Shown here: one piece after another, positions 1-61,735 of the stretch
Layout: every line of letters begins with the position of its first letter
How positions within the stretch are numbered: position 1 is the first letter of the stretch
Assembly: GCF_030866785.1 (NCBI RefSeq)
Contig: NZ_CP133018.1
Span: 3,658,001 to 3,722,000, forward strand
Source of the DNA: Agromyces protaetiae
GTDB lineage: Bacteria > Actinomycetota > Actinomycetes > Actinomycetales > Microbacteriaceae
Reading direction: 5' to 3'
Length of the DNA stretch: 64,000 nucleotides
Translations under genes and position numbers: made by a program
The notes under the pieces: model-generated
What the model was told of the DNA's origin: nothing
Database searches by the model: none
The model's input: the letters and a program-made list of their open reading frames with translations, nothing else

Positions 1-745
1 CCTCGTCGAAGCCCGCACGGTAGCCGTCGTCGTAGGCCTCGTCGGCGCCCTGCCGGAACAGGTCACGCTCGGCGGGACGCTGGATGCTCCGTGCACCCGG
101 CAGATCGAGCGATCCCACGAGCCGGCCGAGCCCGCGCACGACCGCGACCGGCACGCCGGCCGACTTGCCCTTGACCAGCTCGGCGGCGCCCGCGAGCTCG
201 TCAGCCACGCACGGCATGGTCACCGACAACGGCTTGCCCGAGGCATCCGCCGACCCGCGGAGATCGTCGAAGACCTGCACGCCCGCCGCGCCGATCGCGA
301 TGTCGGTCTGGCCCTCGCGCCAGGGGCGCCCGACGGTGTCGGAGAGGATCACGCCGACTGCGGCGCCCGTGAACGTGCGCACGCCCGCCGCGAGGTCACG
401 CGCGGACGCATCGGGGTCCACGGGCAGCAGCAGGATGACGCCGTCGGGCGCGTTCGAGGCGTCGACGCCCGCCGCGGCCGAGATGATGCCCTGGCGGTTC
501 TCGACGATGCGCGTCACGCCGCCCTCGTACTCGCGGGCAGCGACGAGCCGCACCGTCTCGGCCGTGATCGCGGCCTCGCGGTCCGCACCCGGCACCATGC
601 GCCCCTCGGCTTTGGAGACGATCTTCGACGTCACGACGAGGATGTCGCCGTCTTCGAGCTCGGTCGCGCCGGCGATGATCGCGGCGAGGTCGGCACCGGG
701 TTCGATCTCGCCGATGCCCTCGACGCCCTCGATGCTGAAGCGCAT
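1..745 (-). CDS. cofE: coenzyme F420:L-glutamate ligase (CofE), C-terminus cut by window edge
   Basis: CofE adds L-glutamate residues to F420-0 with GTP, the last step of coenzyme F420 biosynthesis in the cytosol. Family-typical segments are visible: an N-terminal [23 protein letters not shown] stretch, [34 protein letters not shown], and [21 protein letters not shown]. About 248 residues fit in the window without a stop, close to the length of a stand-alone CofE (roughly 250), so only the tail should be missing; an FbiB-like C-terminal fusion cannot be excluded. The ATG at 745 was chosen because GGGAGG sits six bases upstream; the ATG at 751 touches that box. A DDN-type F420 reductase-like gene at 53189-53623 supports F420 use in this genome. 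Confidence 0.9.
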
Positions 746-808
746 TCCCATCCTCCCGACCGGTTGTCCCGGCGACCATCATCCCAGCCGTCCCGCACTG
801 TTGCGAGC

Positions 809-844
809 AGGCTACTGCCGAGCGCTCGGCCTCGGCAGTAGCAT
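809..844. promoter_or_regulatory. divergent promoter dyad between cofE and the DUF6328 gene
   Basis: A perfect 12-bp inverted repeat, GCTACTGCCGAG (811-822) and CTCGGCAGTAGC (831-842) with an 8-bp spacer, lies between two divergent genes. Each arm overlaps a -10-like hexamer: TAGCAT (839-844) for the right-hand gene, whose ATG follows after six bases, and TAGCCT (814-809, minus strand) for cofE. The arrangement suggests one regulator acting on both promoters. The dyad is seen directly; the regulation is inferred. Confidence 0.5.
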
Positions 845-850
845 CCATGC

Positions 851-1393
851 ATGACCGCCCCCGCCCACCGTGCCGAACCCGGCGACGACTCCCCGTCCGG
901 CGCCGACGGCGACGCTCGCACGGCCGAGCTCGAAGACGGTCGCGATGAGACGCCACTCGAGCGAGCCGACCGCAACTGGGGCGAGATCCTGCAGGAGCTG
1001 CGCGCCGTGCAGACCGGCACGACGATCATCACGGGCTTCCTACTCGCGGTCGCGTTCCAGCCCAGGTTCGACGACCTCGAACCCTACGAACGCGGGCTCT
1101 ACCTCGTGCTCGTGGTCCTCGCCGGGTTCGCGACGGTGCTCGGCCTCGCGCCCGTCATCATGCACCGTCAGCTGTTCGGCCTCCGGCAGAAGGCGCGCCT
1201 CGTGCGCTCGGCCAATCAGCTGCTCATCGCGCTGCTCGTGGTCGTCTCGCTGCTCGCCGCGGGCGTGACGAGCCTCATCTTCGACGTCGTGGTGAACCGC
1301 GCCGCGGGCTTCATCGCGCTCGGCGTCGCCCTCGTCGTGCTGGTCGTGTTCTGGACGATCGTGCCGCGGATCGGACACCGGCCGGAGCGGTGA
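851..1393 (+). CDS. DUF6328 family membrane protein
   Basis: A 180-residue protein with a charged N-terminus of about 45 residues, then the DUF6328 hallmark RNWGEILQELRAVQTGTTI, followed by about four hydrophobic helices (residues about 58-70, 83-103, 125-145 and 150-172). Members are often labelled sodium:proton antiporter, but no biochemical role is established, so I call only the family. The ATG at 851 lies six bases after a TAGCAT -10 box, so the mRNA is probably leaderless. It is divergent from cofE and shares its promoter dyad. The C-terminus is short and basic. Confidence 0.8.
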   Translation: MTAPAHRAEPGDDSPSGADGDARTAELEDGRDETPLERADRNWGEILQELRAVQTGTTIITGFLLAVAFQPRFDDLEPYERGLYLVLVVLAGFATVLGLAPVIMHRQLFGLRQKARLVRSANQLLIALLVVVSLLAAGVTSLIFDVVVNRAAGFIALGVALVVLVVFWTIVPRIGHRPER

Positions 1394-1427
1394 GTCGACG
1401 CGGTGGGACTCCGTGGGCGGCGTCTTC

Positions 1428-1433
1428 TACGCT
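1428..1433 (+). promoter_or_regulatory. -10 box, leaderless xth mRNA
   Basis: TACGCT followed by six bases and the ATG of xth. This TAnnnT-N6-start pattern recurs at several genes here and matches known actinobacterial leaderless transcripts. No clear -35 is visible. Confidence 0.5.
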
Positions 1434-1439
1434 GATGGG

Positions 1440-2285: not shown

Positions 2286-2393
2286 CGCCGGCCACGGGGG
2301 CAGTGGATTTCCCGAGGCGCTGCGTTCGGTCGGCGCGCTCGGAGCACCGTCGTCCGGAAGCGCAACCCCAGGCGGACGCCCAAACACCGGGTC

Positions 2394-2399
2394 TACCCT
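2394..2399 (+). promoter_or_regulatory. -10 box, leaderless kinase mRNA
   Basis: TACCCT lies seven bases before the GTG at 2407. No Shine-Dalgarno site is separable from the start codon, so a leaderless transcript is the simplest reading and it decides the GTG start. Confidence 0.45.
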
Positions 2400-2406
2400 C
2401 GGGGGC

Positions 2407-3795
2407 GTGACTACGGCACCTCCTGGCTCGGCCGTCGACGATGCGCTCGTCGGCGCGCTCCTCAGCGAGCGCTATCTCGTGACCGGGCTCGTCGGCCGCG
2501 GCGGCGTCGCGACCGTCTATCGCGCGACCGACCAGGCGCTCGGGCGCGAGGTCGCGGTCAAGGTCTTCCGCGGCGCCGAAGGGCTCGACGACCCCGCACG
2601 GCGGAAGTCCGAGACGGCGTTGCTCGCGAGCCTCACCCACCCGGCCCTCGTCATGTTGCACGACTCGGTGCGCGAGCCGGCCAGCGGTCGCGAGTTCCTG
2701 GTGATGGAGCTCGTCGAGGGCCCGAACCTGCGCGAACGCCTCGATGCCGAGGGTCCGCTGGGCGCCGACGAGGCCGCCGCGATGACGGTCGAGCTCGCCG
2801 AGGCCCTGCACGTGATCCACACGCGCGGCATCGTGCACCGTGACGTGAAGCCGGCGAACGTGCTGCTCGCGCCATCGCCCGTGCCGACGCGGGCGTGGCG
2901 GGCGAAGCTCGCCGACTTCGGCATCGCCCGGCTCATCGACGACGCGCGCCTGACCGCGACCGGCGGCCTCATCGGCACGCCCGCGTATCTCGCGCCCGAG
3001 CAGGTGCGCGGGCTCGGTGCGGGGCCGGGCTCCGACATCTACGCGTTCGGACTGCTGCTGCTCGAGTCCCGCACCGGGCACGCCGCGTTCCCGGGGCCGG
3101 CGATCGAGGCCGCGGGCGCGAGGCTCACACGCGACCCCGAGCTGCCGGCGTCGCTCGGCACGGATTGGCGCGAGCTGCTCGCGGCCATGCTCGCGCGCGA
3201 GCCCGGGGACCGGCCGACGGCGCTCGAGGTCGCCGTGGCGGCGGCCGCGCTCGGGCCGGAGCTCGACGGCGAGCCGGGTTCGGCGCTTCGCGCCACTTCG
3301 GGCGCCTCCGCGCCACCTGTGGTGGCGCAGAGCGCGGCAGGTGGCGCGGAGGAGAGCGAGAGCGACGGGCGAGCGGATGCCCCGACCGCGGCGGTCTCGG
3401 CCGAGGCCCTCGACGAACGCGGCGAAGCGCCGACCGCGCTGCTGGGCGACCCGGCCGGAATGCTGCCCTCGCCATCCGGCGCGCGCGGGCGCCTCCGCGC
3501 CATTTCAGGCAGATCCGCGCCAGCACAGGTGGCGCAGACGCGAGGAAGTGGCGCGGAGGCGGAAGTGCGTGGCGCGACGGGCATCGCCGCGACGGCAACG
3601 GGCCGGCGGCGGCCGGGGTGGCTCATCCCGGTCGGCACGGTCGCAGCTCTGCTGGTCGCCGCGGCGATCGTGGTGCCGATGACCCTGTCGGGGGCCGGCG
3701 GCGGTGGCGCCGAGCCGACCCCTGCTCCCATCCCGAGCGTGCCGGGCCAGCTCGGCGTGCACCTCGAAGAGCTTGAGGAGGCCGTGACGCCATGA
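2407..3795 (+). CDS. transmembrane serine/threonine protein kinase
   Basis: A Hanks-type kinase of the PknB kind, 462 residues, GTG start. The catalytic domain spans about residues 20-280: glycine loop GRGGVATVY (30-38), ATP-binding Lys in VAVKVF (K52), catalytic loop HRDVKPANV (about 143), DFGIARL (about 171) and GTPAYLAPEQ. A long Ala/Pro/Ser linker of about 120 residues leads to one membrane helix (about 402-422, WLIPVGTVAALLVAAAI) and a short outer tail. There are no PASTA repeats. The linker contains two copies of an LRA(T/I)SGxSAPxxVAQ unit encoded by palindromic DNA (see repeats). The stop overlaps the next gene's ATG (ATGA), so a lipoprotein is co-translated and may act with the outer tail. 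Confidence 0.93.
   Translation: MTTAPPGSAVDDALVGALLSERYLVTGLVGRGGVATVYRATDQALGREVAVKVFRGAEGLDDPARRKSETALLASLTHPALVMLHDSVREPASGREFLVMELVEGPNLRERLDAEGPLGADEAAAMTVELAEALHVIHTRGIVHRDVKPANVLLAPSPVPTRAWRAKLADFGIARLIDDARLTATGGLIGTPAYLAPEQVRGLGAGPGSDIYAFGLLLLESRTGHAAFPGPAIEAAGARLTRDPELPASLGTDWRELLAAMLAREPGDRPTALEVAVAAAALGPELDGEPGSALRATSGASAPPVVAQSAAGGAEESESDGRADAPTAAVSAEALDERGEAPTALLGDPAGMLPSPSGARGRLRAISGRSAPAQVAQTRGSGAEAEVRGATGIAATATGRRRPGWLIPVGTVAALLVAAAIVVPMTLSGAGGGGAEPTPAPIPSVPGQLGVHLEELEEAVTP
3301..3351. repeat. palindromic repeat copy A inside the kinase linker
   Basis: Begins with GGCGCCTCCGCGCCA and contains a perfect 14-bp inverted repeat, CTCCGCGCCACCTG (3306-3319) with CAGGTGGCGCGGAG (3338-3351), plus a nested 8-bp hairpin (3310-3317/3321-3328, loop TGT). 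It is coding throughout and homologous to copy B at 3488-3560. Confidence 0.8.
3488..3560. repeat. palindromic repeat copy B inside the kinase linker
   Basis: Begins with the same 15 bases as copy A and has a 16-bp inverted repeat with one mismatch (3491-3506 and 3545-3560). It is about 22 bp longer in the middle than copy A. Both copies are in frame and give similar peptides. Confidence 0.8.
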
Positions 3796-4373
3796 TCCGA
3801 CGACGTCAGCACTCGCCGAACGCCGGGCCGGCACGGCGACGGGCGGGCCGCGGCCTCGCTGCAGTCACGCTCGTGGCCGGGCTCGTGCTCTCCGGGTGCG
3901 TCGCACAGGCCGACCTCGGCTCGGAGGACGCCGCCGCGTTCCGCGAGCGGGTCGCCGCGGTGGGCGAGCGTTCGCTCGCGGGCGACTACGCGGGGGCCAC
4001 CGCCGAGCTCGCGCTGCTCGAGACCGCGGTGGCCGAGGCATCCGATGCCGGGACGCTCGGCGACGCGCGCGAGGCCCGCATCACCGACGCCATCGCCGTG
4101 GTCCGCGCCGATCTGGACGCGCAGATCCAGGCGCAGCAGGCGGCCGAGCAGGCCGCGCGCGAAGCCGCTGAGGCGGCCGAGCAAGCCGCCGCCGCGGAGA
4201 CGGCCAGAGTCGCGGCCGAGCAGGCCGCCGCCGAAGAGGCCGCCCGCCGGGCCGACGAGCGCGGGAAGGACAAAGACAAAGACAACCGCGGCCCGGGCAA
4301 GAACAACGGGAACGGGAACAATGGCAACGGGAACGGCAACCGCGGCGGCGGCTCCGACGAGGACGACGAGTGA
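3792..4373 (+). CDS. alanine-rich coiled-coil lipoprotein, kinase partner
   Basis: A 193-residue protein of unknown function. The basic N-terminus and hydrophobic segment end in a lipobox (LVLSGC, Cys36), so it should be a membrane-anchored lipoprotein outside the cell. Residues about 40-95 form a small helical domain; about 100-150 are a highly charged Ala/Glu/Gln coiled-coil stretch; the last 40 residues are low-complexity Gly/Asn/Lys/Asp ending in acidic residues. The ATG overlaps the kinase stop by four bases (ATGA), so the two are translationally coupled. A role as ligand or accessory of the kinase is plausible from context only. Confidence 0.8.
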   Translation: MIRRRQHSPNAGPARRRAGRGLAAVTLVAGLVLSGCVAQADLGSEDAAAFRERVAAVGERSLAGDYAGATAELALLETAVAEASDAGTLGDAREARITDAIAVVRADLDAQIQAQQAAEQAAREAAEAAEQAAAAETARVAAEQAAAEEAARRADERGKDKDKDNRGPGKNNGNGNNGNGNGNRGGGSDEDDE

Positions 4374-4402
4374 GCGGTGCAGCATCGGTCGCCGCGGCCG
4401 CC

Positions 4403-5236: not shown

Positions 5237-7825
5237 TCATGTGGCGGTGACCGATGTCGTCGTCAGGATCTCGACGATCTCCTGGAACGTCGTGCGCTCG
5301 GGAGACCCGGCGGGGCCGACGACCTCGAGGAACGGCCGGAACACCTTCTTGAATGCGGTCGCTGTCTTCTCGTCCGCGCCCCGCAGGACCCACTTCGACA
5401 CATGTTCTTCGACGATCTTCTCGATCTCCCGAACGTCCTGCTGGAGATCATCCAGTTCGACGTCGGTGGCGCCCCCCTTCAGCTTCGCGACTTTCGCACT
5501 CAGTGCCGCGCTTTTCTCTGCCCCGAGCGCCACTTTCGAAGGGACGTTCGAGCTGAATACGTTGATGAAGTCCTTGTAGGCCTTCGTCTGCGTAACGGCC
5601 GCGAATGCGTTCACCCGGTTCGCGGCGAAGAGCTCGTATTGGTCGAACATCGGAAGCGGAAGGTTGGCGTTCGAGGTGGATGACGCGGTGCCGTTCTTCG
5701 GCACGTGGATCCGGAGCGCGGGCGCGGCGAGCTTGGTGACGATCCTGGGCGCGGCGATGGCACCGATGGTGGCAAGGGCGCCGGCACCCATGAGGGCGTA
5801 TTCGGCGTAGTTGAGTCGTCGGCTCGTCTCCGGGTCGAGGAACCTGGTGTAGTGGTCGTCGACGATGCGGAGCGTCGCGATCGTGAACCCGGCGGTGCCG
5901 GCGGCCCAGCTGAACGCGCTGAACATGGCCGCAGCGGTCCACGCCGAGGCTGCGAGCGGCGTCGCGAGGCCGAAGGTGCTGACCGCGGTGACGACGGAGA
6001 ACACTGCGCTCAGCCCGATGACGAGGGTGTTGATCAGGTCCTGCTGCGAGAGATGGCCTGTGGGGTCGATGTTGGTGATGGGGTTGGTGTTGGCGTAGCC
6101 GTACCGGTTCTGTAGCGGCATGGTGTCGAGGGTGGTGAACGCGAACCGGTCGGGGGTGTAGGTGCGGACGGCGAGGTGTTGGGTGCCGGACGGGTTGGTG
6201 TACTCGCCGGCGTAGAGGAATGGGTATCTGGATGCCTCGTCGGGGGTGGGTTCGACGCTGGTGTGGGTCGTGGTGGTGTGGGTCGTGGTGGTGCCGTAGT
6301 CCGTATAGGCGTATCGGGCGGTGGGGGTGCCGGTGGGGTCGGTGAGTTCGGTGGTGTTGCCGTGCCGGTCGTGGATGGCGTAGACGGTGTCGTCGGTGAG
6401 GGTGCGGGATTCGCGGGTGAGGCCGGTGAGGTAGCTCGCGGTCTGCGTCGTGTCGGCGGTGGTGTGGGTGTCGTTCAGGAGGGTGCCGTCGTCCCAGTGG
6501 AACGTCGTCGTCTGGTCGGTGGTGGTGAGGGTGGCGCGGTCGCCGGTGGCCCAGTACCCGGTGCGGGTCGTGGCACCGGTCGGGGTGGTTTCCTGCACGG
6601 GCTGATTCAGCGCGTTGTAGCCGTATCGGGTGCCGTCCGCGGCGAGGGTCATCAGCCCCGACACGTCATAGGCCGACACCACCCGGTTCGTCCCGTCAGT
6701 CACCGCGGTCTCGAACCCCACACCCCCCACACCCGCCGCACCGGCCACACCGGCCGCGCCAGCCGCGCCGGCCGTGCCGGCCGACGGCATGCCCACGTCG
6801 GGCACTCCGGGCCAACCCGACGCCAACCCCGCGGCCGCGTCCCACCACCGCTCGAGGACCGGCTCACCGGTCACCGGGTCGGTCACCGTCACCCGCTCCA
6901 CCGCCGAGGTGCCATCCGGCAGCGCCCGCCAGGTCAGGTTCGTCACCGCCCCACTCGCGGTCCCCACCCGGGACACCAAGCCCGACGGGGCGTAGTCCAC
7001 GGTCGTGCGCGACCCCGCGGCATCCACCACCCCAACCACCTGACCACCATCCAACTCGACCACCCCGGCCGACCGGGGCGCACCCGCACCCGCCCGGGTC
7101 TGCACCTGCACCCGGGCCGGATCCGACCAGTCCAGCTCGGTCACCACACCCGTCTCGGTCACCACCCGGGTCAACCGGTGCCCCGGCTGCCAAGACCAAT
7201 CCACCCGGCCACCGTGCGCGTCGAGCTTCGCGACCGGGTCACCCGCGGCGTCGAAGTACGACACCAGCCCGCCCAGCTCCCGCAGCACGAACGCATACTC
7301 CCGCTCGCCCACGACTCCGTCGGCCCGCGCCGGCAACACCCCCGGCGTCTGGCTGAACCGCACCTCATCACCGACATACCCCGCCAGGCCCGACGGCACC
7401 GAGTCATCGACCTCGAACACGCCCTGCACACCCCGGGACGGCACCACCCGCACCCCACCCGCGACATCCACGAACCCGACCCCCGCGACCGCCCACCGCG
7501 ACCCCAACCCGAACCGGCCCCCACCAGACCCCCGCGAATCCCACGCCAGACTCACCCCACCCAACGGCACCTCGACCGAGAACGACCCCACCCGCTCATC
7601 AAGCGCACCCTGCACCCCCGCACCCAGAGGCAACACCCCCAGCACCGGCGCACCGCCCTCGGCCCCACCATCAGCAGCCGCCCACGACGGCGACACCCCA
7701 CCGACCAGCAGACCGGCGCACACCAACCCACCCAGCAGCACACCCCACCACGAACGACGCGACCCTCCGCACATCTTCGTCACGTCAGCCCCCGACGCAG
7801 ACCCAGCCACACCAGACATCGGCAC
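5237..7825 (-). CDS. secreted RHS-repeat protein with variable membrane-helix C-terminus
   Basis: An 862-residue protein. A signal peptide or membrane anchor (about residues 24-50) precedes an RHS/YD-repeat region with YGYNALNQPVQETTPTG, RYAYTDYGTTT and the core-ending signature LQNRYGYANTNPITNIDPTG at about residue 590. The last 270 residues follow this signature, as toxin domains do in RHS and polymorphic-toxin proteins. They hold hydrophobic helices (about 598-655 and 674-698) and a charged helical tail, matching no toxin family I recognise. This part is less GC-rich and less codon-biased than its surroundings. The protein is short for the family. No immunity-like gene follows; the next gene converges. 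Start is GTG 7825 or ATG 7819, both after AAGGAG. Confidence 0.85.
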   Translation of the reverse strand: MPMSGVAGSASGADVTKMCGGSRRSWWGVLLGGLVCAGLLVGGVSPSWAAADGGAEGGAPVLGVLPLGAGVQGALDERVGSFSVEVPLGGVSLAWDSRGSGGGRFGLGSRWAVAGVGFVDVAGGVRVVPSRGVQGVFEVDDSVPSGLAGYVGDEVRFSQTPGVLPARADGVVGEREYAFVLRELGGLVSYFDAAGDPVAKLDAHGGRVDWSWQPGHRLTRVVTETGVVTELDWSDPARVQVQTRAGAGAPRSAGVVELDGGQVVGVVDAAGSRTTVDYAPSGLVSRVGTASGAVTNLTWRALPDGTSAVERVTVTDPVTGEPVLERWWDAAAGLASGWPGVPDVGMPSAGTAGAAGAAGVAGAAGVGGVGFETAVTDGTNRVVSAYDVSGLMTLAADGTRYGYNALNQPVQETTPTGATTRTGYWATGDRATLTTTDQTTTFHWDDGTLLNDTHTTADTTQTASYLTGLTRESRTLTDDTVYAIHDRHGNTTELTDPTGTPTARYAYTDYGTTTTHTTTTHTSVEPTPDEASRYPFLYAGEYTNPSGTQHLAVRTYTPDRFAFTTLDTMPLQNRYGYANTNPITNIDPTGHLSQQDLINTLVIGLSAVFSVVTAVSTFGLATPLAASAWTAAAMFSAFSWAAGTAGFTIATLRIVDDHYTRFLDPETSRRLNYAEYALMGAGALATIGAIAAPRIVTKLAAPALRIHVPKNGTASSTSNANLPLPMFDQYELFAANRVNAFAAVTQTKAYKDFINVFSSNVPSKVALGAEKSAALSAKVAKLKGGATDVELDDLQQDVREIEKIVEEHVSKWVLRGADEKTATAFKKVFRPFLEVVGPAGSPERTTFQEIVEILTTTSVTAT

Positions 7826-8109: not shown

Positions 8110-8994
8110 ATGTCAACGACCGCGACCACGCCGCGCCCCGCCGCCGGCGGCACTGCGCTGCCGGTCGAGTTCAGCGGCCTCGGCCGTGCGTTCGCGACCG
8201 CCGACGGCGCCCGCCCGGTGCTCCGGGACCTCGATCTCGTCGTCGAGGCCGGGGAGATCCTCGCGATCCTCGGGCCCAGCGGGTGCGGCAAGTCGACACT
8301 GCTCCGCATCGCGGGCGGACTCGACCACCAGACCTCCGGCACCGTCACGATCGACGGCGCCGAGGTCAAGGGGTTCGACACGCGCTGCGCCGTCGGCTTC
8401 CAGGAGCCGCGCCTGCTGCCCTGGCGGTCGGTCGCGCAGAACGTCTCGCTCGGCCTCCCGCGCGGCACCGCCCGCCAGGCCGGCCGTGAGCACGTCGACC
8501 GCCTGCTGGAGCTCGTCGGGCTCGCCGACTTCGCCGGGCACCGGCCGCGCGAGATCTCGGGCGGCATGGCGCAGCGCGCCTCGCTCGCCCGGGCACTCGC
8601 CAGGAACCCCTCGGTGCTCCTGCTCGACGAGCCTTTCGGCGCGCTCGATGCACTCACCCGGCTGAAGATGCAGGACCTGCTGCTGGACGTGCACGCCGCA
8701 GAGCCCACCACGGTGCTGCTCGTCACGCACGACGTCGACGAGGCGCTGCAACTCGCCGACCGCATCATCCTGCTCGGCGCCGAGGAGCCGGACGACGCAG
8801 CCGACGCGGCGCCCGCGCGGCCCGGCGCGATCATTCAGCAGACCGTCGTCGTACCGGGTACGCGACCCCGCGACCGCGGCTCGGCCGAGCTCGCCGAGCT
8901 GCGCGGCCGTCTGCTCGACGGGCTCGGCATCGACCGGCACGGCTCCGCCCGAGGCATCCCCTCGACGACGACCATCCCCGCCTTCCCCTACTGA
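8110..8994 (+). CDS. ssuB: aliphatic sulfonate-type ABC transporter, ATP-binding subunit
   Basis: The cytosolic ATPase of an SsuABC/TauABC-type importer, 294 residues. Walker A is GPSGCGKST; the Q-loop is FQEPRLLPWRSV, typical of SsuB/TauB (LLPW); the signature is ISGGMAQRASLARAL; Walker B is VLLLDEPFGALD with the following LVTHDVDEAL switch His. The last 60 residues extend beyond the fold and end in a disordered tail. It is first in the order ATPase, binding protein, permease. Sulfonate is the family's usual substrate; nitrate, taurine or thiamine-precursor transporters are close relatives, and no monooxygenase gene accompanies it here. Confidence 0.88.
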   Translation: MSTTATTPRPAAGGTALPVEFSGLGRAFATADGARPVLRDLDLVVEAGEILAILGPSGCGKSTLLRIAGGLDHQTSGTVTIDGAEVKGFDTRCAVGFQEPRLLPWRSVAQNVSLGLPRGTARQAGREHVDRLLELVGLADFAGHRPREISGGMAQRASLARALARNPSVLLLDEPFGALDALTRLKMQDLLLDVHAAEPTTVLLVTHDVDEALQLADRIILLGAEEPDDAADAAPARPGAIIQQTVVVPGTRPRDRGSAELAELRGRLLDGLGIDRHGSARGIPSTTTIPAFPY

Positions 8995-10165: not shown

Positions 10166-11197
10166 GTGACGGATGCCTCGGGGCGGACGGATGGCTCGGG
10201 CGCGGGTCTCGAGACACGCGCTCCGGAGTCGCCCGCGACTCGACCAGCGGCGAGTGCGAGCTCAGCGGACGAGCAGTTCGCCTCGCCCGTGACGCAGAAC
10301 GGACTCGTGGTCGCCGCCGCCGGCTCGGAGCGCTCCGTCGGCATCGACCGCCGCCCGTACGGGCCGACGCCCGAGGCATCCGGATCGTCCGAGTCATCCG
10401 GCTCCCGCGAGGCATCCGTCCCCGCCAATCGCCGACGCCTCGTGAACCGGCGCTGGTTCCGAATCGTGGGCGGCGCGCTCATCCCGATCGCACTGCTCGC
10501 GGCGTGGCAGTACGTCTCGACGAGCGGCCTCGTGGCGCTGTCGATGCTGCCGAGCCCCGAGATGGTGTGGCTCGCGGCCGTCGACCTGGCCGAACGCGGC
10601 CTGCTCGGCCTGTACGTCGCGATCTCGACCCAGCGCGTGTTCCTCGGCTTCGCATTCGGCGCGGTGATCGGGCTCGCGGTCGGCGCGGTCGTCGGGCTGT
10701 CGAAGCTCGGTGACATCCTGCTCTCGCCGACGCTCGGCGGGATCCGAGCGGTGCCGTCGCTCGCCTGGGTGCCGCTGCTCATCCTGTGGTTCGGCATCGG
10801 CGAGGACTCGAAGGTCATCCTGATCGCGATCGGGGCGTTCTTCCCCGTCTACACGATCGTCGCGTCGTCGTTGCGGCACGTCGACCGGCACCTGCTCGAG
10901 GCCGGCCGGGCGTTCGGGTTGCGGGGGTTCCGGCTGTTCGGGGCGGTGCAGCTGCCCGCGGTCGTGCCATCGGTGGTGTCGGCGCTCCGGCTCGCGCTCG
11001 CCCAGGCGTGGCTCTTCCTCGTGGCGGCCGAGCTCATCGCGAGCTCGATGGGCCTCGGATTCCTGCTCAACGACTCCGGGCAGAACGGCCGGATCGACCG
11101 CATCTTCCTCGCGATCATCACGCTCGCCGTGCTCGGCAAGCTCTCCGACGCGCTCATCGGCCTGTTCGAACGCTGGGCGATCAAGCGCTGGGCGTAG
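10166..11197 (+). CDS. ssuC: sulfonate-type ABC transporter permease with long N-terminal extension
   Basis: A 343-residue inner-membrane permease. About six hydrophobic helices begin near residue 97 (IVGGALIPIALLAAWQYV), and the EAA loop EAGRAFGLRGFRLFGAVQLPA is present. The first 90 residues are low-complexity and polar, unlike typical SsuC (about 250-270 residues). Part of this extension is written in a GGGTCTCGAGAC...CTCGACCAGCGG sequence resembling a dispersed repeat (10204-10250). The GTG at 10166 has AAGGA eight bases upstream and is the best-supported start. Two hairpins after the stop end the operon. Confidence 0.87.
   Translation: MTDASGRTDGSGAGLETRAPESPATRPAASASSADEQFASPVTQNGLVVAAAGSERSVGIDRRPYGPTPEASGSSESSGSREASVPANRRRLVNRRWFRIVGGALIPIALLAAWQYVSTSGLVALSMLPSPEMVWLAAVDLAERGLLGLYVAISTQRVFLGFAFGAVIGLAVGAVVGLSKLGDILLSPTLGGIRAVPSLAWVPLLILWFGIGEDSKVILIAIGAFFPVYTIVASSLRHVDRHLLEAGRAFGLRGFRLFGAVQLPAVVPSVVSALRLALAQAWLFLVAAELIASSMGLGFLLNDSGQNGRIDRIFLAIITLAVLGKLSDALIGLFERWAIKRWA
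10204..10250 (+). repeat. dispersed repeat-like segment within ssuC
   Basis: Begins GGGTCTCGAGAC and ends CTCGACCAGCGG. It resembles the GGTCTCGATACG...CTCGACCAGC repeats I know from Microbacteriaceae intergenic DNA, and a degenerate relative lies at 30625-30671. Here it is translated as part of the unusual N-terminal extension of the permease. Confidence 0.45.
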
Positions 11198-11515: not shown

Positions 11516-13525
<2,010 letters not shown>

Positions 13526-13605: not shown

Positions 13606-14193
13606 TCAGGCGCGGCGGTCGGCGTCGGGCGCAGGCTCGCCGGATGCCTCGTCGCCAGCGCCGGCCGGAGTCGACGCCTCGGTCGGGGTCGCGGGCACGT
13701 CGGGCGCCTCGTTCGCCGAGGTCTGGATGATGGGCTCGTCGACCGGGCGGGCCGGTGCCGCGGGTGCCGCCGTGACCGGCGCGGCGGCCGGTGCAGCGGC
13801 AGCGGGGGCCGCAGCGGTGGGCACGGCGCCGGCGGGCACGGCCTCGTCGGCGGCCTCGTATTCGCCGTACCCGGCGTCGTCGCCGAACTCATCGGCCAGC
13901 GTGTCGGCCGCGGAGCGGCTGAAAGCTCCGAGGGCGATCAGGATGCCCAGCGCGGCGAGCGAGACCACGAGTCCGACGATGCCCGCCGAGAGCAGACCCG
14001 ACGAGACCACGATGGCCGACTGGCTGCCGTAGACGTCGGCGGCGGTGCCGGTCTGGCTCGTGAGCGCGGTCGTGAGCGTGGAGTTGATCGATGCGGTCCA
14101 GAGCGCGCCGGCGACGATGGCGCCGAGCGACACGACGAGCGCGACCACGGGCAGGAGGAGCTTCACGGCGGTGGACGGGCGGGATGCGGACAT
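13606..14193 (-). CDS. two-helix membrane protein with Ala/Pro-rich tail, unknown function
   Basis: A 195-residue protein I do not recognise beyond similarity to short Microbacteriaceae membrane proteins. Residues about 10-32 (VKLLLPVVALVVSLGAIVAGA) and 62-92 (VVSSGLLSAGIVGLVVSLAALGILIALG) are membrane helices flanking a short Ser/Thr-rich outer loop. The rest is a disordered, acidic, Ala/Pro-rich cytoplasmic tail of about 95 residues. The ATG at 14193 is followed directly by a basic MSASRPSTAVK. It converges with acs and diverges from the DUF6421 gene. No function can be assigned. Confidence 0.7.
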   Translation of the reverse strand: MSASRPSTAVKLLLPVVALVVSLGAIVAGALWTASINSTLTTALTSQTGTAADVYGSQSAIVVSSGLLSAGIVGLVVSLAALGILIALGAFSRSAADTLADEFGDDAGYGEYEAADEAVPAGAVPTAAAPAAAAPAAAPVTAAPAAPARPVDEPIIQTSANEAPDVPATPTEASTPAGAGDEASGEPAPDADRRA

Positions 14194-19110: not shown

Positions 19111-19191
19111 CCTCGTCCGCTCACGCGATCATCATGCTCCGGTCGGCAGGCCTCGGCAACGGATGCCTCGCCGGGGAGTACGCTCCGGATC

Positions 19192-21811: not shown

Positions 21812-21853
21812 CCCGGGGCATCCGCCCCGCTTCGCTCCCACGCACCGAGAGGG

Positions 21854-24926: not shown

Positions 24927-25059
24927 GCGTGCGACGCTACCCACCCCCTCCGACATCCGGAAGAGGCAACCCGCCGCTCCGGCCTCCCCCACGCGGCGGA
25001 GCCCGCCGATCGCCCCGAATTCCGTCGCGCGACGGATGCCGCCCGCACCGAGGCATCCG

Positions 25060-48568: not shown

Positions 48569-50777
<2,209 letters not shown>

Positions 50778-51640: not shown

Positions 51641-51733
51641 CGCGGAGGCATCCGCCCGCGCGCTCGCTCGCTCGCCCACTGCACGCCCGGCCGCTGGGCG
51701 TCGGACAGCCGCGCCTCGATCAGCAGCGCCTCA

Positions 51734-52788: not shown

Positions 52789-53188
52789 GATCACGCTCCT
52801 CGCCGTCTCGGCCGATCGTACGCCGCCGCTCGGGCGGCCACACCCCTGGCTTGCCCGCGAGACGACGTCGCGCGAGCAGTCCCCGACGCGGGCCGCGCCA
52901 GCCACACCCCGGCAGCCCCGGCAGCTCGGATGCCCCGGGGCGGGCCCGGGGCATCCGAGGTCTCTGTGGGCGTGCGCGGCCAGGCCCGCGTCGCGCAGAC
53001 GCCGGAGTTCGAGCGCGCCCGGCGGCGCCCGAGACCGAGAGGCTCACGGTCGAAGATGGCCCGTCGGCAACGGATACGCGCCGTCGGGTTTCACGACGAT
53101 GAACAGTCGGCGCCCGCGCGGATGCAGGTGGAATGCGCTCGCCCTGGAACGCGTTAGCCTCGGAAAGGACGACTGAGGAGGACCGTAG
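52789..53188. other. 400-base divergent gap with an isolated strong hairpin
   Basis: No convincing gene in any frame. CTCGGATGCCCCGG (52925-52938) and CCGGGGCATCCGAG (52946-52959) form a 14-bp perfect stem with a 7-base loop, in a place where a terminator is not expected (between divergent starts). The right end holds TAGCCT (53155-53160), a possible -10 for the F420 reductase-like gene, followed by GAGGAGG. Confidence 0.5.
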
Positions 53189-53733: not shown

Positions 53734-54999
53734 TCAGAGCCGCCGCATCGTGAACGCCGACGCCAGCAGCCGGCGCATCGGCCAGACGGCGAGTACCCGG
53801 ACGAGCCGGTTCCGAGCCGCAAGTCGCACGCCGGCGGCGGGCGCGCCCATGGTCATGTTGAACGCCGCCTGCCGGGTGGCGCGGAGCGCCGCGGACCGCC
53901 GAGCCCGGTCGTAGTCCCCGAACGGGGTCGCGGGTGCACCCTCGGCGAGTGCGCGAGCGAGCTCGGCGTCGAGCCGCACGGCGTCGAGCCAGCCGAGGTT
54001 CATGCCCTGCCCGCCGATCGGGCTGACTTCGTGGGCCGCATCGCCCACGAGCGCGATGCGGCCGTGCGCGAACCGGTCGGCCAGGTGCTGACGTGCCGCG
54101 AACGCGCTCGGCTCGGTCGCGGTCGCGAGGTCGACGGATGCCTCGGTGCGCGCGGCGACGATCGTGGCCAGCGCCGCCGGGGTGAGCGGGGCGGGCGTGC
54201 GCCGCACCCAGGCCACCCATCGACGGCGCCCACCGGGCAACGGGAACGACTCGACCACGCCCGCCGGTTCGAACCGCAGCAGGGCGGTGGCCGGGGCATC
54301 CGTCGTGTCGTCGCTGTCGCCCATGATGTACTCGGCGCTGCCGCGCCGCGCCCGCCACCCGATACCGGCGAGCCCCCGCACCGTGCTGCGCACGCCGTCG
54401 GCCCCGACCACGTATCGCGCGCGCACCACCTCCATGCCGCTCGATGGGCGACTCCGCGTGCCCGTGTCGCCCGAAGGGACCTCTCCAGCTGAACGCGGAC
54501 GCGATTCCAGCGACACGGCGCGGCCATGTCCCGCGAGCGCACCCGCAGCGGCGGGCGAAGCAGCGATTCGGGCGACACCGCGAACGATCACCTCGACGCG
54601 GCCGTCGACCGTGCGCAGGCCGTCAACCGCGGTCCCCCGCCGCAGGGCGGCCGGGGCGAGCTCGGCCAGCCGGGCCTCCAGCAGCCGCTCGGTCTCGCGC
54701 TGCGGCAGCGACCAGACGTGCTCGTCGTCGAACGCGAGGCGGCCGAGCTCGCGGCCCTCGCAGGTCACGACGCCGTCGCGGATCGGCACGCCGAGGCGGC
54801 GCACGTCGGCGCCGACGCCCGCCGCGTCGAGAGCCCGCAGCCCGGGTGGATGGATGCCGATCGCGCGCGTGCGCTCGCCCGCGCCCGTACGCCGCTCCAG
54901 CACGACGACGTCGAGACCCCGCTGCGCGAGCAGGCACGCGAGCAGCAGGCCGACGGCGCCCGCGCCGACGATCGCGACGTCGTGCACCGCACCATCCAC
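53734..54999 (-). CDS. FAD-dependent oxidoreductase/hydroxylase of the type III PKS operon
   Basis: A PHBH-type (UbiH-like) flavoprotein, about 421 residues. The ADP-binding loop is VAIVGAGAVGLLLACLLAQRG; the second FAD motif is ALVGDAAHEVSPIGGQGMNLGWLDA; VVGADGVRSTVRGLAG lies between. It is last in an operon after the type III PKS and methyltransferase, the order of srsA-srsB-srsC in Streptomyces, where SrsC hydroxylates the methylated alkylresorcinol toward a quinone. The start is uncertain: GTG 54999 or 54987. The 200 bases before it hold a 19-bp direct repeat. Confidence 0.85.
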   Translation of the reverse strand: MDGAVHDVAIVGAGAVGLLLACLLAQRGLDVVVLERRTGAGERTRAIGIHPPGLRALDAAGVGADVRRLGVPIRDGVVTCEGRELGRLAFDDEHVWSLPQRETERLLEARLAELAPAALRRGTAVDGLRTVDGRVEVIVRGVARIAASPAAAGALAGHGRAVSLESRPRSAGEVPSGDTGTRSRPSSGMEVVRARYVVGADGVRSTVRGLAGIGWRARRGSAEYIMGDSDDTTDAPATALLRFEPAGVVESFPLPGGRRRWVAWVRRTPAPLTPAALATIVAARTEASVDLATATEPSAFAARQHLADRFAHGRIALVGDAAHEVSPIGGQGMNLGWLDAVRLDAELARALAEGAPATPFGDYDRARRSAALRATRQAAFNMTMGAPAAGVRLAARNRLVRVLAVWPMRRLLASAFTMRRL

Positions 55000-55199: not shown

Positions 55200-56000
55200 T
55201 CACAGGGGCGCCTCCCAGACGACCTCCAGCCGCGATGGGAAGCCGCGGCGGACGCGCCAGCCCGGTGGCAGCGCCGCGGCGAGCTCGGCCGCCGTGTGAC
55301 TGCGGCGGATCGAGGTCAGCCCGTCGGGCCTGATGAAGGACCCGCGCAGCAGGTTCGGCTCGAACGGCAGCGTGCCGAGCCAGAACGCCGCATACCCGTG
55401 CCGTGTGCGCTCGATGTCGCCGTGCACGGCCACGCCTCCCGGGGCGACGAGCCGTTCGGAGTCCGCGAGCAGCGCACCGAGCTCGCGACCGTCGAGATGG
55501 TGCAGCACATGGTTCGAGGTGACCACGTCGAACCAGTCGCCGGCGGTCACGAGCTCGCGGGTCGACACGCCCCGCAGCTCGAGGCCCGGCATCGGCGGGC
55601 GGCGCCGGGCGAAGTCGATCGCTCGCTCGTCCGGGTCGATCGCCACGATCTCCAGCGGCAGGCCGTCGGCGTGCGCCCAGCGCAGCAGCCGGCGCGGCAG
55701 ATCGGCGCCGCCGGTGCCCACGTCGAGCAGCCGGCCGATGTCGCCGACCGCAGCGCGGCGCCGCAGCCGCGGCCGGATCCAGCTGCGGTACACCGCGCGC
55801 TGGCCGGAGACCACGGCGTTCACGAGCCCGAACCGTTCGTAGGTGCGCTCGAGCATGGCGGGGTCGCACGCGGGGTCGTCCATGAGCTCACGCGCGGCGT
55901 CGTCGCGTGCGGCCAGCCCGCGGCGCGACGCTCCGCCCGAGGCATCCGCCCGCTCGTCGCGCCCACCGGCGCCGCGCGAGGCGCGTGCCCCGGTCGCCAC
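55200..56000 (-). CDS. SAM-dependent methyltransferase of the type III PKS operon
   Basis: A class I methyltransferase, 266 residues. SAM loop RLLDVGTGGADLPRRLL, acidic strand end EIVAIDPDERAI, and VVTSNHVLHHLDGRELGALLADSERLVAPGG are typical. The first 40 residues are low-complexity, and ATG 55883 is an alternative start. GTG 56000 begins one base after the PKS stop, so translation is coupled. By analogy with SrsB it would methylate an alkylresorcinol made by the PKS. Confidence 0.85.
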   Translation of the reverse strand: MATGARASRGAGGRDERADASGGASRRGLAARDDAARELMDDPACDPAMLERTYERFGLVNAVVSGQRAVYRSWIRPRLRRRAAVGDIGRLLDVGTGGADLPRRLLRWAHADGLPLEIVAIDPDERAIDFARRRPPMPGLELRGVSTRELVTAGDWFDVVTSNHVLHHLDGRELGALLADSERLVAPGGVAVHGDIERTRHGYAAFWLGTLPFEPNLLRGSFIRPDGLTSIRRSHTAAELAAALPPGWRVRRGFPSRLEVVWEAPL

Positions 56001-56001: not shown

Positions 56002-57144
56002 TCAGCCCCGCACCGTGAGCAGCGCCGACTCCACGGTCAGCCCTGGGCCGAACGCCATCGCGGCGACCCGATCGCCGTCGGCGGCGTCGGCCTGGTCGAG
56101 GATCCGGCGGAGCACGAACAGCACCGTCGCGCTCGACATGTTGCCGTACTCGTGCAGGATCCCGCGGGCCGGCGCGAGCTGCGCCTCGGTCAGCACGAGC
56201 CGGGACTCCACCTTGTCGAGGATGCTGCGCCCGCCCGGATGGATCGCCCAGTGCTCGATCGCCTCGCTCGAGGCATCCGTCTCGAGCGCCGTGACGAGCG
56301 CCTCTTCCGCCTCGAACAGCGGCTCGAGCGCCCCGGTGACGTGCTCGTCGATGATCGAGGGGACCGCGTTGGAGAGCACCATCTCGAAGCCGTGGTCCCC
56401 GATCTTCCACGCCATATCACCCTCACCGACCGGCGTGATCCGGGTCGCGAACCGGTCGAGGTCGAGCGCGCGCTCCCCGGGTTCGAGCGGCCGCGCCGTG
56501 ACGATGCCCGCTCCCGCACCGTCGGCGAACAGCGACGAGGCGACGATCGTGTCCGGGTCGTTCGACGACCGCAGGTGCAGCGTGCACAACTCGACGCTGA
56601 CGACCAGCACCACGGCCGTGGCATCCGCCTCACACACCTGCTTCGCCAGCCGCAGCGCCGGAATCGACGCGTAGCAGCCCATGAACCCGAGGTGGTAGCG
56701 CTGCACGCCCGCCGGCAGGCCGAGATCGCGCGCGAGCACATAGTCGGGTCCGGGGGCGTAGAAGCCCGTGCAGGACACGGTGATCACATGGGTGACGTCG
56801 CCGGCCTCGATGCCGGGCGTCGCCTCGAGCGCGGCGCGACCGGCCTCGAGGTACAGGCGGCTCGCGTGCTCCGCGTAGAGCTCGTTGCGCGCCTTCGTCC
56901 CGGGCATCAGCAGGTCGCCGCTCTCGACATCGAAGAACACCGGCTCGTCGGGGTGCGCCTCGCGGTTCAGCTCCTCGATCACGGTGTAGCGGGTCGCGAT
57001 GCCCGACACATTGAACGACGTCGGGATGATCCGCTGCGCGAGCCGGTTCAGGCCCGGCTGCGCCGAGAACACGTCGCGCACTTCCTCCTGTACGAGCACG
57101 GTCGGGGGCACGACGGTGGACAGGCCTCGCAACGCAACGGTCAT
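56002..57144 (-). CDS. type III polyketide synthase
   Basis: A 380-residue chalcone-synthase-like homodimeric enzyme that extends acyl-CoA starters with malonyl-type units, without carrier proteins. The catalytic triad is visible: Cys in VSCTGFYAPGPD (about residue 125), His in AIHPGGRSILD and Asn in YGNMSSATVLF. GFMGCYASIPALRLA and FADGAGAGIV are further family marks. With the methyltransferase and FAD hydroxylase it forms an Srs-like operon, so alkylresorcinol or pyrone phenolic lipids are expected. The ATG at 57144 is preceded by TACCAT after five bases. Confidence 0.93.
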   Translation of the reverse strand: MTVALRGLSTVVPPTVLVQEEVRDVFSAQPGLNRLAQRIIPTSFNVSGIATRYTVIEELNREAHPDEPVFFDVESGDLLMPGTKARNELYAEHASRLYLEAGRAALEATPGIEAGDVTHVITVSCTGFYAPGPDYVLARDLGLPAGVQRYHLGFMGCYASIPALRLAKQVCEADATAVVLVVSVELCTLHLRSSNDPDTIVASSLFADGAGAGIVTARPLEPGERALDLDRFATRITPVGEGDMAWKIGDHGFEMVLSNAVPSIIDEHVTGALEPLFEAEEALVTALETDASSEAIEHWAIHPGGRSILDKVESRLVLTEAQLAPARGILHEYGNMSSATVLFVLRRILDQADAADGDRVAAMAFGPGLTVESALLTVRG

Positions 57145-57269
57145 GCCTGATGGTATGTGTGCCTGCACCACCGCGGGCAAGGGGTGGACACCCTCGCCGC
57201 CAGCCCCTAACAGGGTTGCACGCCCGGAGCCTCGGCGTCGTCGACGAGGCATCCGGGCGTCGTCTCGCG

Positions 57270-57593: not shown

Positions 57594-57654
57594 GTCGCCC
57601 TCCTCGGTGTGTACGGTCTCGACGCTGTTCGACGCACTCGCGCTACGCGGGCAC

Positions 57655-59636: not shown

Positions 59637-59683
59637 CCGTTCCGCCGGGCGGAGCGAGCCCAGCGGCATCGACCGACGTCACC

Positions 59684-59731
59684 GCGGCGACGCGGCGACG
59701 CGGCGACGCGGCGACGCGGCGACGCGGCGAC
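59684..59731 (+). repeat. six perfect 8-bp tandem repeats
   Basis: GCGGCGAC six times without change (59684-59731) in the 121-base gap between convergent genes. It is followed by two copies of CACGACCGCCGGC. Eight is not a multiple of three, but no coding frame is affected. Likely hypervariable by slippage. Confidence 0.92.
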
Positions 59732-59757
59732 ACGACCGCCGGCGCACGACCGCCGGC

Positions 59758-60957
59758 TTACGCCCCGGCTGCGTCCTCGGGGTGCCGCCGCCCACGCCGC
59801 TCGGCCTTGGCCGCGGCATCCTCGGCGTCCATGACGCGTCTCGCCTGGTTCAGGTCGCCGAGCGCGGGCCTGATCCACGCGTTCGCCGGATTCGAGTCGA
59901 CGAGCAGCATGCGCACCAGCAATGTCAACGGGATCGCGAGGATCGCCCCGATCGGGCCGAGCACCACGGCCCAGAACAGCACCGAGAAGAACGTCAGCGA
60001 CTGGCTCAGCGCGACCGCGTTGCCGACCACCCGCGGCTGGATGATCGACTGGATGATCCCGTTCACGAGGCCGTAGACCACGATCACGGCGATCACCAGC
60101 GGCCAGCCGCCGACGAGCGCGGCGAACACGATGGGGGGCACGATCGCGATGAAGTACCCGATGTTCGGGATGAAGCTGCAGATGAACGCGAGCAGCCCCC
60201 AGAGCGCGGCGCCCGGCACGCCCAGGATCACCAACGCGATCCAGTTCACGAGTCCCTGCGCGGCGCCGAGCACGGTGGTCACCACCATGTAGCGGCGCAC
60301 CCCGAACGTGTAGCCGACGGATGCCTCGGCGAGGAGTGGCTTCCGCGTCCTGAGGTCGCGCGTGAGCGTCTTCGCGTACGACGCGTCCATCGCCATCAGG
60401 ATCAGCATGGTGACGAGGATCACGACCCCGCTCAGCAGGCTCGCCGCGCTGCCCAGCACGCCACCGAGCACGCCCGCGATCGCGCCGGGATCGAGGCCCG
60501 ACACGATGCTCTGCACCTGCGCCTGCCCGAACCCGATGCTCGCGAGCCACTCGCCGAAGCCGTCGACCCAGGACTGCAGCTGATCCGTGTACTGCGGCAG
60601 CAGCGCCGCGAACTGCCCGAACGACACGACCAGCGCCCCCGCGAACGCGCCGAGCAGCAGCACGACCGCGAGGATCACCGCGACACTCGCGACCCCCCGC
60701 GGGACGCCGTGTCGTTCGAGCCACGACCGGATCGGATAGACGCAGATCGTGAGCACGAGCGCGAAGAACGACAGCGCGAAGATCGTGCCGATCGCCGCCA
60801 GCCCGAACGCGGCGACGGTCGCGCCCCCGAGCCCGAGCAGGATGAACGCCGTGCGGTGCGGCGGCGGCGGCGCCTCAGCAGCGGCGACCGGATCGCCGGG
60901 CGGCTGCGGCGCGCGCTGACTCTCGGGGGACGGGGGCTTCTTCCGGTTCCACCACAT
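59758..60957 (-). CDS. AI-2E family transporter
   Basis: A 399-residue membrane protein of the AI-2E/PerM family. A Pro-rich cytoplasmic N-terminus is followed by two to three helices, a central hydrophilic part (about 125-195), and further helices with the family marks GLVNWIALVILGVPGAALWGLLAFICSFIPNIGYFIAIVPP and LSQSLTFFSVLFWAVVLGPIGAILAIPLTLL. Members export small molecules or ions; autoinducer-2 export is shown only for TqsA. AGAGGAG precedes the ATG. A charged 35-residue tail follows. Confidence 0.92.
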   Translation of the reverse strand: MWWNRKKPPSPESQRAPQPPGDPVAAAEAPPPPHRTAFILLGLGGATVAAFGLAAIGTIFALSFFALVLTICVYPIRSWLERHGVPRGVASVAVILAVVLLLGAFAGALVVSFGQFAALLPQYTDQLQSWVDGFGEWLASIGFGQAQVQSIVSGLDPGAIAGVLGGVLGSAASLLSGVVILVTMLILMAMDASYAKTLTRDLRTRKPLLAEASVGYTFGVRRYMVVTTVLGAAQGLVNWIALVILGVPGAALWGLLAFICSFIPNIGYFIAIVPPIVFAALVGGWPLVIAVIVVYGLVNGIIQSIIQPRVVGNAVALSQSLTFFSVLFWAVVLGPIGAILAIPLTLLVRMLLVDSNPANAWIRPALGDLNQARRVMDAEDAAAKAERRGRRHPEDAAGA

Positions 60958-61063
60958 CTCGACTCCTCTCGAGAGTCACCGCAGCAGGCCGCAGTTCGGC
61001 TGATGCCGATGATGGCGCAACTCCGCGCCCGCCGCCATCACCGAACGCCCGGTGCAGCACGGC

Positions 61064-61735
61064 TCAGAAGCTCCCGATCCCCTTTCCGATGACGACGACG
61101 CCGATCACGAGCAGCAGCACGGCCATCACGGTGGCGTTGTTGTGCACGAGCCACGCCCGCAGCGCCTCGAGCGGCCCCGCCATGCGGGCCGAGGCGACCA
61201 GGTAGGCGATCACGGGCCCCGCGACCGAGATCGCGGCGACCACGGTGAACACGAGGATGGCGACGGCGGATGCTCCGGCGTCGAGCCCGGCCGTCCCGAT
61301 CACGACCCCGGCCGCGGCGGCCATGAGCAGGTTCTTCGGATTCACCGCCGAGAGGAGGAAGCCGAGGACGAGCCCGCGCACCGCCGTCATGCCGTCGATC
61401 GCCGCCATCCACTTCGGCAGCGCCGCCTCCTCGCCGGCCTTCGGCCGCGAGCGCCACTGGCGCGCCGCCAGGAGCAGGAGCAGCACCCCGAGCACCAGCT
61501 TGATCGTGCCGGCGATGGGCTTCGAGGCATCCGGATCCTGTTCGGGGATGATCGCGGACAGCAGTGTGAACACGACCACCGCGACCACGATGCCGAGCAC
61601 CCAGCCTGCGAGGAACCCGACGCTCGTGCCCTTCGCCTTCGGCGAGAGCAGCATGAGGATCGCAGCGATGATCGGGATCGGGCTGATCGCGATGCCGATG
61701 GCGAGGGGCAGGATGTCGCCGACGACCCCGTTCAC
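61064..61735 (-). CDS. GAP family (sulfolipid-1-addressing-like) membrane protein
   Basis: A 223-residue protein with six hydrophobic helices, LysE-like in layout. GAP-family marks: LPLAIGIAISPIPIIAAILMLLSPKAKGTSVGFLAGW and GFLLSAVNPKNLLMAAAAGVVIGTAG. The mycobacterial relatives act in envelope lipid export. The GTG at 61735 overlaps the upstream DUF1254 stop (GTGA); an ATG 36 bases upstream would overlap more and is less likely. It forms an operon with the DUF1254 gene. Confidence 0.87.
   Translation of the reverse strand: MNGVVGDILPLAIGIAISPIPIIAAILMLLSPKAKGTSVGFLAGWVLGIVVAVVVFTLLSAIIPEQDPDASKPIAGTIKLVLGVLLLLLAARQWRSRPKAGEEAALPKWMAAIDGMTAVRGLVLGFLLSAVNPKNLLMAAAAGVVIGTAGLDAGASAVAILVFTVVAAISVAGPVIAYLVASARMAGPLEALRAWLVHNNATVMAVLLLVIGVVVIGKGIGSF

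Follow-up and report, generated by a model that had tools for sequence, protein, structure and literature searches.

The 64-kb window analysed here (64,000 nucleotides of the Agromyces protaetiae chromosome, NZ_CP133018.1, positions 3,658,001 to 3,722,000) contains, among others, genes for a Rhs/YD-repeat protein, an acetate-CoA ligase, a DUF6421 protein and a type III polyketide synthase (PKS), and is strewn with copies of a nine-base word, GAGGCATCC. Counting both strands, 28 exact copies are present in the window, whereas dinucleotide shuffles average 1.04 and never exceed 4, and the strong over-representation reported in a first-pass annotation of the sequence is thereby upheld. The 27 positions given there were all correct, and an additional copy lies at 1646. 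Sequence context lengthens the word to CGAGGCATCCG in 25 of the 28 copies, and the pattern CGnGGCATCCG occurs 36 times in the window, with 28 copies in called genes and 8 in intergenic DNA. Most genic copies had been described as encoding Glu-Ala-Ser or Asp-Ala-Ser, and this holds for 27 of the 28 genic CGnGGCATCCG copies (13 read Glu-Ala-Ser in sense orientation and 14 read Asp-Ala-Ser in antisense; the last belongs to neither class). The four copies originally considered intergenic (19161, 25050, 51645 and 57246) are indeed so, as are the 9-mers at 10171 and 22150 according to our open reading frame (ORF) caller. The individual sites, in window coordinates, are as follows.

239-249, forward: CGAGGCATCCG, antisense in called gene 2-745
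1645-1655, forward: CGAGGCATCCG, absent from the earlier list
2164-2174, reverse: CGAGGCATCCG
3374-3384, reverse: CGGGGCATCCG (G form)
4034-4044, forward: CGAGGCATCCG
6230-6238, reverse: GAGGCATCC, 9-mer only, in the Rhs/YD-repeat gene
8951-8959, forward: GAGGCATCC, 9-mer only
10170-10180, reverse: CGAGGCATCCG, intergenic
10372-10382, forward: CGAGGCATCCG
10408-10418, forward: CGAGGCATCCG, 36 bp past the copy at 10372
13218-13228, reverse: CGTGGCATCCG (T form)
13297-13307, forward: CGAGGCATCCG, in the acetate-CoA ligase gene
13641-13651, reverse: CGAGGCATCCG
14618-14628, forward: CGAGGCATCCG, in the DUF6421 gene
16433-16443, reverse: CGAGGCATCCG
16497-16507, forward: CGCGGCATCCG (C form)
19160-19170, reverse: CGAGGCATCCG, intergenic
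21513-21523, reverse: CGAGGCATCCG
21814-21824, forward: CGGGGCATCCG, directly past the end of a called gene
22149-22159, forward: CGAGGCATCCG, intergenic by our ORF caller
23024-23034, reverse: CGGGGCATCCG
25049-25059, forward: CGAGGCATCCG, intergenic, with an inverted CGGATGCC upstream
25845-25855, reverse: CGAGGCATCCG
26544-26554, forward: CGCGGCATCCG
30221-30231, forward: CGAGGCATCCG
34550-34560, forward: CGAGGCATCCG
37596-37606, reverse: CGAGGCATCCG
50100-50110, forward: CGCGGCATCCG
51645-51653, forward: GAGGCATCC, 9-mer only, intergenic, convergent genes on either side
52927-52957, unstranded: head-to-head inverted pair CGGATGCCCCG-n9-CGGGGCATCCG (two 11-mers), intergenic
54135-54145, reverse: CGAGGCATCCG
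54292-54302, forward: CGGGGCATCCG
55938-55948, forward: CGAGGCATCCG
56269-56279, forward: CGAGGCATCCG, in the chalcone/stilbene-synthase-type (type III PKS) gene
56617-56627, forward: CGTGGCATCCG
57245-57255, forward: CGAGGCATCCG, intergenic
60318-60328, reverse: CGAGGCATCCG
61523-61533, forward: CGAGGCATCCG

The abundance of the word extends to the whole chromosome. In its 4,181,720 bp, GAGGCATCC occurs 1344 times (679 forward and 665 reverse), a density of 1 per 3.1 kb, compared with 0 + 1 copies of the reversed GAGGCATCC used as a control. In a 464-kb sample, 124 copies of CGAGGCATCCG were seen where Markov models of orders 2-4 predict 2.0-2.5. The count against a Markov model of order 7 that had been proposed proved uninformative, because higher-order models increasingly contain the word itself; expected values under orders 5, 6, 7 and 8 are 9, 29, 77 and 123. 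One-base variants are frequent in the same sample at positions 3-5 alone (position 3, G 36, C 18, T 18; position 4, A 12; position 5, A 17), with counts of 0-6 at other positions, and the CG and CATCCG ends of the word are strictly kept. Intergenic sites anchored on GGCATCC (n = 121) are preceded by C in 79%, G in 92% and A in 64% of cases and followed by G in 83%, with flanks that are free beyond about 13 bases and a conserved part of about 11-13; the reversed 7-mer gives 7 intergenic sites against these 121. The true motif is therefore about 11 bases long, CGnGGCATCCG, non-palindromic and partly degenerate.

The relationship between the word and coding sequence was examined in an 844-kb sample, made up of the window and 39 evenly spread 20-kb stretches, in which genes were called with our unpublished codon-model ORF caller. 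The 272 copies of the 9-mer divide into 74 intergenic, 195 coding and 3 straddling, and since non-coding DNA makes up 12.1% of the sample, the density of intergenic copies is nearly three times that of coding copies. The coding copies are mainly restricted to two frames, with 88 reading sense GAG GCA TCC, 84 antisense G GAT GCC TC and 23 spread across the other four frames. Of 143 Glu-Ala-Ser tripeptides, 83 are written GAG GCA TCC (1.6 predicted from codon use), whereas the mirror control, Ser-Ala-Glu written TCC GCA GAG, gave 0 of 113; Asp-Ala-Ser is written GAT GCC TCG in 78 of 175 cases, where 5.3 are predicted. Synonymous shuffles (n = 20, 675 genes) retained on average 16.9 copies of CGnGGCATCCG, and at most 26, as opposed to the 241 observed. 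The word is thus a signal at the level of DNA, which the codons follow. The tripeptides themselves are over-abundant (Glu-Ala-Ser, 143 versus 103.5 expected; Asp-Ala-Ser, 175 versus 106.8), and it follows that protein sequence has been pulled along with the word.

Comparison with related species provides a view of how copies come and go. The protein taken for RecF, encoded between dnaN and gyrB, shares 77-81% identity with those of six named Agromyces loci (A. bauzanensis, A. agglutinans and A. mediolanus among them) and is 68% identical to that of an uncultured Agromyces, which by itself places the host in this genus of the Microbacteriaceae. Ten coding sites in the window were considered, nine of which have orthologs among 20 relatives. 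For the majority of the nine, gaps in the columns of the word are few or absent, two sites within one variable N-terminus giving a gapped alignment, and the mostly ungapped columns indicate that base substitution explains gain and loss. In the DUF6421 gene the exact 9-mer is kept in 11 of 20 Agromyces orthologs, and the alanine codon of the word is GCA in 14 of the 20, GCA making up 6.5% of alanine codons. The spacer between dnaA and dnaN contains the core CGGATGCC in 8/8 Agromyces, the reversed core in 0/8 and the full 11-mer in 3/8, with positions that vary between most species, A. bauzanensis and sp. H66 being seemingly alike. A hairpin in the gyrB-gyrA spacer was rejected as an orthologous site, being present in this genome and absent from the corresponding spacers of seven named relatives in the genus. 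Separately, the Rhs/YD-repeat protein gene (window 5237-7471) has no ortholog in 20 relative stretches, yet has one 9-mer inside.

With regard to chromosomal layout, the record starts at dnaA (dnaA, gyrB and gyrA were confirmed by NCBIfam), and the origin was therefore placed near position 1; the terminus was assumed to lie at 2.09 Mb. On this basis no replication-strand bias was seen in the 844-kb sample, with 173 of 341 CGnGGCATCCG copies on the leading strand (p = 0.83), and the same is true of the 9-mer (125/272, p = 0.20) and of CGAGGCATCCG (97/218, p = 0.12). Each of the 39 sampled stretches contains the word (1 to 19 copies per 20 kb, mean 7.8), and no origin or terminus pattern was seen among them. 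The absence of polarity argues both against Chi and against segregation words, and the suggestion that this might be a segregation or architecture word is accordingly not supported. In six head-to-head pairs the two words lie within 25 bp of each other, all six pairs being intergenic and one of them that at window 52927-52957, compared with a single tail-to-tail pair under a slightly stricter pattern. Three of the head-to-head pairs, plus a further pair (L018), fold as hairpins with z scores of -2.8 to -8.3. Of 35 spacers between tandem genes, 25 have the words closer to the upstream stop (p = 0.017), and genic CGnGGCATCCG copies comprise 136 sense versus 105 antisense (p = 0.05).

Three further observations concern the same sample. 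Stretches of this genome between 3.78 and 4.01 Mb (L019, L039 and L020) have 1, 1 and 2 words per 20 kb against the mean of 7.8, and this word-poor region is possibly acquired DNA. Intergenic tandem arrays of the word are found at L016 3416-3516, L035 12913-12954, L025 17685-17711 and L037 3280-3416, with units, in the same order, of 25 bp (five), 13-14 bp (four), 13 bp (three) and 68 bp (three); our guess is that such arrays arise by slippage after a word has been gained. A second repeat with core TTCCTGAGCAAGGA, whose 12-base part occurs 24 times, 23 of them intergenic, has sites that include L003 10974-11280, L004 16317-16548 and L008 17304-17524. It is a family resembling repetitive extragenic palindromic (REP) elements, separate from the word and often arranged in inverted or tandem sets with common flanks.

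All 60 Agromyces genomes, this one included, carry CGAGGCATCCG, in 58 to 1255 copies, with no more than 4 copies of the controls. Forms whose third base is C or G number 243 to 2417 (46 Agromyces genomes), and the A, C and G forms together 396 to 2869 within the genus. The third base is mostly A in some species (1104 versus 394 C/G in this genome) and mostly C/G in others (327 A versus 2417 C/G in G009). Across 199 Microbacteriaceae genomes CGnGGCATCCG ranges from 0 to 2671 copies with patchy enrichment, and in the order's other families the C/G form numbers 7 to 59. Among 42 named genomes surveyed for CGnGGCATCCG, counts were 2422 in A. agglutinans, 2120 in A. bauzanensis and 1140 in A. mediolanus; 1504 in Microbacterium hibisci, 1122 in M. 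ulmi, 337 in M. oxydans and 30 in M. sorbitolivorans; and 722 in Leifsonia sp. Root4, 55 in L. aquatica, 43 in Curtobacterium flaccumfaciens and 24 in Leucobacter komagatae. Some low-count lineages have other over-represented words in 100-140 kb samples, namely CGCAGGATC/CGCAGGAGC in G192 (L163-L167) and CGCGGATCC in G268 (L153-L157).

Prophage stretches are poorer in the word, though not free of it. Seven 20-kb prophage stretches round portal genes in Agromyces, which may take in some host DNA, hold 15 words (2.1 per 20 kb), compared with 87 words (7.3 per 20 kb) in twelve 20-kb control stretches of host DNA drawn from six of these genomes (p = 0.002 by rank test and p = 0.06 when paired across the six).

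The genome also encodes a set of genes associated with transformation. A ComEA protein (SLBB + HHH_3) adjoins ComEC, a tad locus near 1.39 Mb comprises a T2SSE ATPase, two T2SSF genes and TadE- and TadG-type pilins, and a second near 2.80 Mb comprises a T2SSE ATPase, a T2SSF gene and a DUF4244 protein, which from its sequence we read as a putative Flp-like pilin. All four T2SSF matches of the genome lie within Tad-type loci. Distribution of these genes was examined in a panel of 80 genomes picked by eye from the extremes of word abundance, 38 with at least 337 copies and 39 with at most 148; the remaining three, which are among the poorest Agromyces with more than 390 copies each, were grouped with the rich genomes (41). 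Just one weak T2SSF match, which we read as loss of the first tad locus, was found in 2 of 41 rich versus 9 of 39 poor genomes (p = 0.024). In samples from two such T2SSF-scarce genomes (60 kb at 56.5% GC, and 40 kb) the best-scoring word reached z 4.7 in each, not clearly higher than the shuffles (maxima up to 4.7 and 4.2, respectively), where the present genome gives z 6.9-14 at the same sample sizes. In G005, G201 and G282, whose counts are low for their groups, the ComEC match starts at profile position 15-28 as opposed to 1-3, and these late-starting matches may represent damaged comEC genes.

Taken as a whole, the copy number, the 11-base core, the presence on both strands, the intergenic excess, the frame restriction, the hairpin pairs and the dialects, together with the presence of the transformation gene set, lead us to favour, with somewhat more confidence than doubt, the view that CGnGGCATCCG is a genome-wide mark of self DNA in a monoderm actinobacterium, analogous to the DNA uptake sequence (DUS). 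The first-pass annotation, which listed codon-pair bias, a Chi-like site and a segregation or architecture word, was partly right in its explanations, although an uptake sequence, missing from that list, fits best. On this view, a surface DNA-binding component, perhaps a Flp/TadE-type pilin or ComEA, would prefer word-bearing DNA, and imported self DNA would recombine into the chromosome. Copies born by mutation would then be spread and kept by uptake-driven bias, most easily where proteins and spacers tolerate them, and dialects would result from shifts in receptor preference. The broader proposal, that Microbacteriaceae have sequence-specific uptake via Tad/Flp pili and that lineage dialects (CGaGGCATCCG, CGcGGCATCCG, CGCAGGATCCG-like and others) block transfer between species, is a tentative one, finely balanced between holding and failing.

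The Neisseriaceae DUS is likewise a short, non-palindromic word with approximately 900-3200 copies; its dialects differ between species, it occupies permissive intergenic sites, and its inverted pairs can fold into stem-loops (PMC3630211). The Agromyces word differs in being unrelated in sequence, in its high-GC monoderm host and in that the four T2SSF matches of its host sit in Tad-type loci. The uptake signal sequence (USS) of Pasteurellaceae is similar in its hundreds to thousands of copies, many of them genic, and in having no general chromosomal orientation bias, but is reported to show gene-end bias and more reverse-complement genic copies (PMC2346458), neither of which is a feature of the Agromyces word with its slight sense excess; the same report describes gene-end bias as not significant in Neisseria. 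Hallmarks that the word shares with DUS and USS are thus abundance, occurrence on both strands without polarity, intergenic excess, inverted pairs, dialects and, as a non-discriminating one, the transformation machinery of the host. In Micrococcus luteus, which has comEA, comEC and two tad loci, transformation requires comEC and both tad loci (PMC4322843), and the Agromyces chromosome carries that gene set too; unlike the situation proposed here, sequence preference goes unmentioned in the main text of that report, where the term 'uptake sequence' occurs 0 times. In mixed culture, transformation of a Microbacterium with free synthetic plasmid DNA has been reported on the basis of Hi-C links (PMC10257627). 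This is the one claim of its kind for the family that the literature search yielded, and it supports competence there, albeit with foreign DNA under strong selection. Formal membership of the DUS/USS class is not claimed, and the role of the word in uptake is put forward as a candidate function.

A number of results weigh against an uptake function. ComEC was found in 80/80 panel genomes, as was DUF4244 (with partial matches in G146 and G268), and so neither tells genomes rich in the word from poor ones; both were tried as discriminators and failed. The association of low counts with T2SSF scarcity is weak (by genus, 1/22 versus 4/15, p = 0.14), and genus g74 (G149 and G220) has 360-397 copies despite one weak T2SSF match in each genome. 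Counts vary widely within a genus (30-1504 in 12 named Microbacterium genomes), and no phylogenetic signal of the A/C dialect was found when it was set against protein distance in 17 genomes (Mantel r = 0.13, a value equalled or exceeded in 750 of 5000 permutations). Discovery of alternative words rests on samples of 40-140 kb: the word GAGGAGGCG in G215 (L178-L182) is less firm, other words scoring equally high, and so are AGCATCCG in G298 and GTCATCC forms in G005, two genomes with several T2SSF matches each whose 60-kb samples likewise yield no word that rises clearly above noise. Prophage stretches, often of lower GC, nevertheless exceed background in words. Gene-end bias was not found (quintile chi-square, p = 0.08-0.88), which differs from Pasteurellaceae. 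Finally, the plasmid taken up by Microbacterium was foreign, and strict word dependence is therefore not implied (PMC10257627).

Of the alternatives, a Chi-like recombination or repair site, read by AdnAB or a RecBCD-type helicase-nuclease and marking self DNA for repair, is unlikely but retains some credibility. Chi is also a frequent, short and species-specific word that varies between species (PMC3630211), its density of one per 5 kb in E. coli (PMC8022716) is comparable to that observed here, and sparser words in prophage stretches would be in keeping with such a role. The Chi-like site raised in the first-pass annotation is a possible reading, but the leading-strand polarity of Chi (PMC8022716) is absent from the Agromyces word, the approximately 50-fold enrichment, the range of copy number within one genus and the switching base are unlike Chi, and intergenic hairpin pairs are unexpected for it.

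It is distinctly unlikely that the word is bound by a protein requiring closely spaced sites in either orientation, such as one of the nucleoid or of chromosome organisation. Occurrence in 39/39 sampled stretches and on both strands and the strictly kept ends of the word are what such a protein might require, but no origin, terminus or strand pattern was seen, related lineages carry other words and prophage stretches hold fewer copies. It is similarly improbable that a methyltransferase or biased repair has accumulated the word without uptake. HIP1, a cyanobacterial word, offers a likeness for this explanation, and very high iteration with patchy spread among related genera would agree with it; against it stand the length, non-palindromic nature and partial degeneracy of the word, the poorer prophage stretches and the excess of the Glu-Ala-Ser and Asp-Ala-Ser peptides themselves.

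Dispersed insertion elements of the REP or bacterial interspersed mosaic element (BIME) type, or terminators, could feasibly give rise to the six hairpin pairs and the several intergenic tandem arrays. REP/BIME elements are longer, conserved, intergenic palindromic units, however, and here most copies are genic (195/272), no flank is conserved beyond the motif, alignable ortholog sites are mostly ungapped and the REP-like repeat of the genome itself looks different, making this explanation very improbable. Lastly, Ala-Ser codon-pair bias or low-complexity coding, although in line with the 172 of 195 coding copies that read Glu-Ala-Ser or Asp-Ala-Ser, has virtually no remaining plausibility, being refuted by the intergenic density, the codon counts, the absent mirrored codon triplet and the synonymous shuffles.

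To our knowledge, uptake sequences are established in two Gram-negative families only. A literature search, outside of which subscription papers lay, revealed no link of uptake sequences with Agromyces or Microbacteriaceae, nor any of six literal forms of the word as whole words. Should the uptake reading of CGnGGCATCCG be correct, it would represent an independent case in monoderm bacteria, implying that the marking of self DNA can evolve with a different pilus. Natural competence would then be predicted across Agromyces and Microbacterium, and the family would provide many species with differing dialects in which the co-evolution of receptor and word might be tested.

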